From an uncultured SAR86 cluster bacterium (GTDB lineage: Bacteria > Pseudomonadota > Gammaproteobacteria > Magnimaribacterales > D2472): a stretch of 64,000 bases of DNA. Each line of letters starts with the position of its first letter. Position 1 is the stretch's first letter. The position numbers and the translations under genes are program-made. Positions 28,589 to 34,676 of this stretch are shown piece by piece. The stretch spans positions 62,001 to 126,000 of the forward strand of contig CACOWI010000002.1 of assembly GCA_902630885.1 (NCBI GenBank), read 5' to 3'. The notes under the pieces were generated by a model that was not told the origin of the DNA, ran no database searches, and was given only the letters and a program-made list of their open reading frames with translations.

Positions 28589-28594
28589 CTTATT

Positions 28595-28775
28595 ACATTC
28601 TGGTTCATTGGCCAATGTGTTAATAAATTTGAACCGATACTATTAAATAGGTGATTTTCCACTGTCATTGTTGAGCATTACCATTTAGGGAAGCCTGATT
28701 TGACAAGATGTTCACCACCTGAACTTTCGGTTCAGGTATAGCACATAGCGGTGATCTGGTTTGCTAGCCTCTGCA
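28595..28775 (+). ncRNA. ssrS: 6S RNA
   Basis: Regulatory RNA that mimics an open promoter and sequesters sigma-70 RNA polymerase. It lies between zapA and the 5-formyl-THF cyclo-ligase gene, its conserved location. Matches to the E. coli RNA include GAACCGATA (28631-28639), TTGAGCAT, GAAGCCT, GTTCACC, and a perfect 8-bp hairpin ACCTGAAC/GTTCAGGT (28717-28724 with 28730-28737). ATGTGTT near the 5' end can pair with AGCACAT near the 3' end to close the molecule. The ends are estimates; the 3' boundary is uncertain by about 10 bases and may reach the next start codon. Confidence 0.88.
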
Positions 28776-33890: not shown

Positions 33891-34415
33891 TTATAGAAGT
33901 TCTTCTATTTTAGATATTAGTTCTGGGGAATCGGGCTTTACCCTTGATCCAAATGTAGAAATGACCTTACCTTCTCTAGATACTAGATATTTATTAAAGT
34001 TCCAAGAAGGTGAGACTCCACTTTGTGCTATTAATTTTTTGTATAGAGGATTTGCTTTGTTGCCTCTAACTTTTGAAGTTGCGAACATAGGAAAATCTAC
34101 TCCGTATTCAGTAGAACAAAACTCAGCAACATCACCTTCATCAGAATATTCTTGCATAAAATCTCTTGAAGGTACTCCGAGTACAACAAATCCGTTATCT
34201 TTGTAGTCTTCATAAAGTTTTTGAAGAGAAGAATATTGATATGTGTAGCCACATCTACTGGCAACGTTTACAACCAGAACAACTTGATCGGAGTACTGGC
34301 AAAGATTAACTTTTTCACTTGAATCTAATACTCTCATTTCTGTATTGAGTAGATCTGAGCAAGCCTCTGTATAAAAGGACATAAGTAACAGTAAAAGAGG
34401 TGCAATCTTTTTCAT
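33891..34415 (-). CDS. Exported glutathione peroxidase-like protein
   Basis: Thiol peroxidase of the glutathione peroxidase fold, 174 residues, with an N-terminal signal ending near EACS, so probably periplasmic or a lipoprotein. The peroxidatic cysteine is C55 in NVASRCGYT, and WNFNKYL supplies the conserved Trp-Asn. The glutamine of the usual active-site NQF is replaced: the stretch reads PSRDFMQE, with D85 at that place. Like most bacterial forms it probably uses thioredoxin rather than glutathione. It lies 14 bases downstream of a tiny membrane peptide gene and a structured leader, and is convergent with rpiA. Confidence 0.85.
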   Translation of the reverse strand: MKKIAPLLLLLMSFYTEACSDLLNTEMRVLDSSEKVNLCQYSDQVVLVVNVASRCGYTYQYSSLQKLYEDYKDNGFVVLGVPSRDFMQEYSDEGDVAEFCSTEYGVDFPMFATSKVRGNKANPLYKKLIAQSGVSPSWNFNKYLVSREGKVISTFGSRVKPDSPELISKIEELL

Positions 34416-34429
34416 TAGTATATTTTAAC

Positions 34430-34516
34430 CTATGTTATTGGAGTTATTGCAGAAAGAGAAGAAATGAAAATGGTGACTAAAAATATAATTTCTATGTTAT
34501 CTCTAAATTTGTTCAT
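34430..34516 (-). CDS. Possible 28-residue membrane peptide in the peroxidase leader
   Basis: On the minus strand an ATG at 34516 opens a 28-codon frame: a short polar start (MNKFRDN) and then an uninterrupted hydrophobic segment (IEIIFLVTIFISSLSAI). AAGG lies about 7 bases upstream of the ATG as a possible ribosome binding site. The stop is 14 bases before the peroxidase ATG. It could be a real membrane peptide, a leader peptide that couples translation, or chance. I do not recognise a family. Confidence 0.4.
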   Translation of the reverse strand: MNKFRDNIEIIFLVTIFISSLSAITPIT

Positions 34517-34531
34517 AAACTTCAACCTTTT

Positions 34532-34561
34532 TAAAAGAGATGGAGGGACTGAGCCCTCCAT
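34532..34561 (-). terminator. Terminator-like hairpin in the peroxidase leader
   Basis: An 8-bp perfect stem (ATGGAGGG, 34540-34547, with CCCTCCAT, 34554-34561) and a 6-base loop are followed, reading leftward, by CTCTTTT. This resembles an intrinsic terminator or attenuator placed before the small peptide and the peroxidase gene. The T tract is short, so it may act as a conditional attenuator rather than a full stop. Confidence 0.5.
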
Positions 34562-34571
34562 GATTCCAGAG

Positions 34572-34608
34572 TGTCAGCAAAATATAATAGGGGAGAGGAG
34601 TGCTGACA
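34572..34608 (-). promoter_or_regulatory. Hairpin at the 5' end of the peroxidase leader
   Basis: TGTCAGCA (34572-34579) and TGCTGACA (34601-34608) form a perfect 8-bp inverted repeat around a 21-base purine- or pyrimidine-rich loop. Read on the minus strand it would be the first structure of the transcript from the promoter at 34615-34642. Eleven bases separate it from the terminator-like hairpin. Confidence 0.45.
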
Positions 34609-34614
34609 TGTATT

Positions 34615-34642
34615 ATTATAACTATTTATAATTAATTATCAA
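34615..34642 (-). promoter_or_regulatory. Strong predicted promoter for the peroxidase leader transcript
   Basis: Reading leftward, TTGATA (34642-34637), a 16-base spacer and a perfect TATAAT (34620-34615) form the best promoter match in the window. The predicted start, near 34608, falls exactly at the base of the TGTCAGCA hairpin. Confidence 0.55.
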
Positions 34643-34676
34643 TATTATTTATAAAATATATTATGTTTTTTTTATG

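Follow-up and report, generated by a model that had tools for sequence, protein, structure and literature searches.

The sRNA sX13 of Xanthomonas has apical C-rich loops and is Hfq-independent, with G-rich motifs located near the start codons of its targets (PMC3771888); altering only the G run of a target is reported to be able to abolish its translation. In Helicobacter pylori, RepG (HPnc5490) uses one C/U-rich loop to bind a run of G in the leader of an mRNA (PMC8295292). The SAR86 RNA analysed here resembles sX13 in its C-rich loop, in the G-rich target site near a start codon, in its probable independence of Hfq and in its gammaproteobacterial host. However, sX13 comprises three stem-loops with three C-rich loops and the SAR86 RNA one C-rich loop and a terminator; on this ground membership of the sX13 family by descent was rejected, and the Rfam search showed no sequence relation between the two. 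The SAR86 RNA also differs in that its loop flank, beyond the C run, pairs and covaries, and in its genomic setting. With RepG it shares a single loop that is complementary to consecutive Gs in the leader of an mRNA; the RepG loop is that of the terminator and its target is a G repeat of variable length, whereas the SAR86 loop belongs to the 5' hairpin and faces a fixed ribosome-binding site (RBS).

Two features of the C-rich-loop kind of sRNA were present, namely a stable stem with an unpaired C-rich loop (58/58 sequences) and a complementary G-rich site near the start of a target gene, here encoding a 72-aa protein, in ten genera. The SAR86 RNA probably works as sX13 and RepG do; homology to neither is claimed. 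In the surface ocean, SAR86 ranks with the most abundant of the uncultured bacteria, and its genomes are of about 1 Mb; the SAR86 genome G000 measures 1.06 Mb.

Layout of the locus and its RNA family

The locus lies on the minus strand of the window, the whole stretch of 64,000 nucleotides that was analysed. An earlier note on this DNA had described a promoter (TTGATA-16-TATAAT, 34642-34615), an 8-bp hairpin, a terminator-like hairpin with a CTCTTTT tail, a 28-codon frame and the start of a glutathione peroxidase gene, and each was found in its place:

34623..34642 (-), promoter box TTGATA-N6-TATAARTA, which includes the -35 element TTGATA (motif count and sharing among promoters)
34615..34620 (-), -10 element TATAAT, 7 nt ahead of the predicted start at 34608 (consensus scan and alignment conservation)
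34533..34608 (-), putative small RNA gene of ~76 nt, both ends predicted (covariance model R1 in 95/107 genomes; 58 distinct sequences aligned)
34601..34608 (-), stem 1, 5' arm TGTCAGCA (six core pairs standard in 58/58; 24 distinct arm pairs)
34572..34579 (-), stem 1, 3' arm TGCTGACA (same basis as the 5' arm)
34585..34597 (-), putative seed within the loop, CUCUCCCCUAUUA (pairs over 13 bp with the 72-aa gene's RBS; covaries between genera)
34540..34561 (-), terminator hairpin ATGGAGGG-CTCAGT-CCCTCCAT (terminator scan; two-sided changes at 2/6 pairs)
34539-34533 (-), weak U tract CTCTTTT, directly after the terminator hairpin
34430..34516 (-), 28-codon frame for the small membrane peptide MNKFRDNIEIIFLVTIFISSLSAITPIT (28-29-aa frame at 41/41 SAR86 loci; median dN/dS 0.30)
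33891..34415 (-), glutathione peroxidase, the downstream gene, with its ATG at 34415 (PF00255, E 4.5e-28)

On its own, the sequence of the locus stands out only slightly. The fold of the window locus had a z of -2.4, with 4/200 shuffles equally stable, and promoter-like and terminator-like sites were no more frequent than in shuffles; the weight lies in the comparison across genomes. In a named SAR86 genome, one contig carries a peroxidase 98% identical to that of the window. A near-consensus promoter-like site on the opposite strand (CTGACA-18-TATAAT, 34603-34632 (+)) overlaps the sRNA start and faces a divergent fadB/fadJ-like gene. Elsewhere in the window, 6S RNA was identified at 28594-28766 (+) (RF00013, 58.5 bits).

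A DNA search with 34525-34650 gave matches, some of the weak ones spanning the AT-rich promoter only, in 97/107 genomes of the same SAR86 family, and several of these genomes hold two or three good copies. R1, which is mostly sequence and has only the terminator pairs as structure, matched 95/107 family genomes, including 18 of the 19 that are at least 90% complete; most of the 12 genomes with no match are incomplete. There was no match in the other genomes of the order (0/96). Among 369 genomes drawn from the class, R1 returned the two that belong to the family and five hits outside it, which were taken as chance (E 0.004-0.01). No Rfam 15 family reached the gathering threshold at the window locus or at the other copies, and the matches at a lax threshold were at chance level only, in agreement with the view of the earlier note that no named RNA family matches. 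A search of the open-access literature found no report of an sRNA in SAR86. Judged by these searches, the locus belongs to a conserved, sometimes multicopy RNA family of one SAR86 family that is previously undescribed.

The copies share one layout: the promoter box, stem 1, the loop CUCCUCUCCCC(C)UAUUA, a linker and the terminator hairpin. The copy upstream of the peroxidase is present almost everywhere. In some genera, g9 among them, a second copy sits close to the pseudoazurin locus and is convergent with a gene for an exonuclease; a third is located elsewhere. A tRNA gene is present near the second copy in genome G093 (L118 2171-2246 (+)).

Comparison across the copies showed covariation of the stem. 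The 3' arm of stem 1 was misaligned by MAFFT, so that RNAalifold missed the stem; the arms were therefore anchored by script on the CARC motif, and R1 was built with the terminator pairs only. The six core pairs are standard in 58/58 distinct sequences, with 24 different arm pairs and two-sided changes (for example GTCAGCA/TGCTGAC, ACCAACA/TGTTGGT, TCCAGCA/TGCTGGA, AACAGCA/TGCTGTT and ATCGGCA/TGCCGAT), a count that leans towards pairing in that anchoring picks the best-fitting 3' arm. An alignment-free swap control, which is independent of the anchoring, gave a mean free pairing energy of -12.35 kcal/mol with the RNA's own 3' region versus -9.70 kcal/mol (sd 0.27) with swapped regions, the best of 1,000 swaps being -10.59. 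The terminator stem showed two-sided changes at 2/6 pairs, in a sequence set for which a terminator-like sequence had been required. The C-rich loop is unpaired in the predicted fold.

The small peptide, the peroxidase and attenuation

At 41/41 SAR86 peroxidase loci examined, a frame of 28-29 aa is present between the terminator and the peroxidase. The frames share a pattern ending in AI-x-P, with a median pairwise dN/dS of 0.30 at a dS near saturation. The 28-codon frame of the window is real, and its small membrane peptide is very likely translated.

Attenuators of amino-acid operons have a leader peptide frame and a terminator hairpin before an enzyme gene. The SAR86 locus likewise has a small frame and a terminator hairpin ahead of an enzyme gene; in contrast, its frame follows the terminator and encodes a conserved membrane peptide with no single-amino-acid run. 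As the frame starts 18-40 nt past the terminator stem at 41/41 loci, it is not a classical attenuator peptide, and the leader-peptide attenuator class was rejected.

A cis-acting attenuator, in which the hairpins would control termination before the peptide-peroxidase operon and the free short RNA would be a by-product, is unlikely. The order hairpin-terminator-peptide-peroxidase is tight and conserved at 41 loci and the weak U tract would permit readthrough, both of which such an attenuator would explain. It would not explain why copies with no downstream peroxidase retain both hairpins and the loop, nor why the conserved loop changes in step with an mRNA encoded elsewhere; furthermore, the position of the peptide makes classical translational control of the terminator impossible, and no alternative antiterminator fold is evident. 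The separate copies away from the peroxidase indicate that the RNA is not merely a peroxidase leader. Of the regulatory leader proposed in the earlier note, the structured, promoter-linked RNA and the conserved order from promoter to peroxidase hold; its being primarily a leader of the peroxidase does not, given the copies near pseudoazurin and the C-rich loop with its covarying target. Attenuation of the peroxidase operon would be at best an additional role.

Probable target gene, loop covariation and proposed mechanism

In G061, a genome of the window's genus (32.4% GC), pairing of the loop with 1,235 predicted translation-initiation regions was examined. The best of these belongs to a gene for a 72-aa membrane protein downstream of pnp (named from its sequence), in which CCUAAUAGGGGGGAGUUAUU ahead of the AUG pairs with the loop at 13 positions, including one G-U; the G-rich RBS is UAAUAGGGGGGAG. 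The protein is present in 92/107 genomes, among them every one of the 19 with a completeness of 90% or more. Downstream of pnp, small membrane proteins of 72 and 78 aa are encoded in tandem, an arrangement conserved across SAR86 (G061:C1:123195-123687 (-); G000:C1:31731-32208 (+)). No Pfam or NCBIfam match was found for the 72-aa protein or for its 78-aa neighbour.

The G-rich site is conserved over ten genera and differs in step with the loop, UAUUA being partnered by UAAUA, UAUG by CAUA and UAUUUAG by CUAAAUA. Across 45 genomes, the pairing energy averaged -20.33 kcal/mol for each genome's own loop and site, compared with -18.30 kcal/mol (sd 0.30) for swapped combinations, and 0.025% of permutations of the genus means were as good (p about 0.00025). 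The pairing is weak in genera g2 and g3 and in genome G077. When G061 was compared with G040 (genus g5), the 72-aa gene was first of 790 orthologue pairs and well ahead; proteorhodopsin was second, near background. The peroxidase tree is compatible with a single origin of the UAUG class, and the UAUG/CAUA change may have arisen once; the independent joint changes of loop and site were therefore counted as at least two, not many. The G-rich RBS is, moreover, partly conserved for ribosome binding regardless of the sRNA. The comparative evidence for a specific target of the putative sRNA is good.

C-rich loops complement Shine-Dalgarno sites generally, and many initiation regions pair moderately with this loop, as would be seen if it acted generally (on ribosomes, on many Shine-Dalgarno sites or on an RNA-binding protein) and its match to the 72-aa gene were incidental. 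This is improbable, however, as UAUUA/UAUG/UAUUUAG, a part of the loop not included in the C run, changes together with the bases that precede the G run, and loops given random 3' flanks rarely do as well, matching the real pairing in a median of 0.6% of trials.

What is conserved and unpaired in the RNA is a C-rich loop, with which an mRNA target covaries, as suits an sRNA that acts in trans by base pairing. The RNA is probably such an sRNA, Hfq-independent, with a loop that blocks translation of the 72-aa gene, with readthrough to the peptide and peroxidase, and with pseudoazurin co-regulated. Transcription from a regulated promoter would begin at the foot of hairpin 1 and stop at hairpin 2, giving an RNA of ~76 nt. 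Hairpin 1 would display the single-stranded C-rich loop, which would pair with the G-rich RBS of the 72-aa membrane protein mRNA and block access of the ribosome, so that the effect would be repression rather than activation. The output of the promoter would be mostly the sRNA; leakage past the weak terminator, which is likely, would yield the 28-aa peptide and the peroxidase, and would thereby place all three under one promoter. Pseudoazurin, driven by the same box, would complete one small regulon.

The sRNA would act without Hfq or ProQ. The Hfq model had no match in 61 genomes of SAR86 family f1, 19 of them at least 90% complete, with a positive E. coli control. The ProQ model similarly had none in 61 family f1 genomes (19 at least 90% complete), with positive control genomes. 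SAR86 is thus without recognisable Hfq or ProQ, and the Hfq-dependent sRNA class was rejected. Helicobacter pylori, too, is not known to encode Hfq. On comparative grounds, the finding of the earlier note is real and understated: the RNA constitutes a new sRNA family of a known functional kind, that of base pairing through a C-rich loop.

The proteorhodopsin leaders contain G runs complementary to the loop ~40 nt before the AUG (GGGGGGGAG in G061, C1 ~296170 (+); CCAUAGGGGA in G040). The proteorhodopsin and TonB-receptor mRNAs are possible further targets.

The promoter box, the proposed regulon and Fur

The box TTGATA-N6-TATAARTA was present in 86/107 genomes, usually once or twice, and the reversed-pattern control was rare; the box is also rare in the sister family f2. 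Leaving aside a handful that look like chance hits, the sites examined precede the sRNA, its paralogue, pseudoazurin, or an operon encoding a ~60-aa membrane protein together with pseudoazurin. Conservation is seen in the arms of the box but not at its centre. A box match between DoxX and a TonB receptor in genome G066 was considered as a link to Fur and set aside as probably chance, a Fur-like site being located nearby.

RyhB and PrrF are iron-responsive sRNAs. NrrF is a further iron-responsive sRNA (PMC5586341). The SAR86 RNA is similar to these three in being a regulated, sometimes duplicated sRNA associated with metal or redox genes; unlike them, it has a promoter without a canonical Fur box, a clade without Hfq and a different pairing region, and assignment to their class was rejected. 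Fur-like boxes, AATGATAATNATTATCATT, occur in the same genomes before genes for a TonB receptor, an iron-binding ABC protein and a bacterioferritin-like protein (named by reading the sequences, not by family search). An iron-sparing sRNA under Fur control, like RyhB, PrrF and NrrF, is most improbable, for all that TGATAAT lies inside the window promoter, that pseudoazurin in the same regulon could substitute for an iron protein, that most genomes have one Fur-family protein and that the copies are duplicated as in PrrF, since those Fur-like boxes sit before other genes, the sRNA and pseudoazurin promoters match them no better than shuffles do, and the centre of the shared box is not conserved. 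The regulator of the box is probably not Fur at its usual site. A metal or redox signal is plausible, because the box is common to the copper protein pseudoazurin.

A wider role is speculative and on balance doubtful: an sRNA network free of Hfq and ProQ, in which the duplicated C-rich-loop sRNA, co-expressed with pseudoazurin, the micropeptide and the peroxidase, would respond to metal or redox state by tuning the 72-aa protein as well as TonB receptors and proteorhodopsin. The conserved sRNA and its covarying target would already show that streamlined cells with no recognisable Hfq or ProQ retain regulation by base pairing. The sRNA locus supplies a concrete target, a small candidate regulon (pseudoazurin, peroxidase and micropeptide) and testable predictions.

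Two further elements were observed near these promoters. A conserved stretch lies between the Fur-like box and the TonB receptor gene (L212 ~1545-1650, also L213, L219 and L228); it starts with GAAAGCTAC and ends with GTAGCTTTC, a long-range inverted repeat, with AUUCCCCUAAAAGUGUGCAG inside. No Rfam match was found for it, and it is possibly another structured leader. The conserved ~60-aa membrane protein (..NDYF..MKFDPLV..VVIPALIQ..), for which there was no Pfam match, is encoded upstream of pseudoazurin (L156, L158; L128 921-1103); in genus g6 its gene comes immediately after the promoter box.
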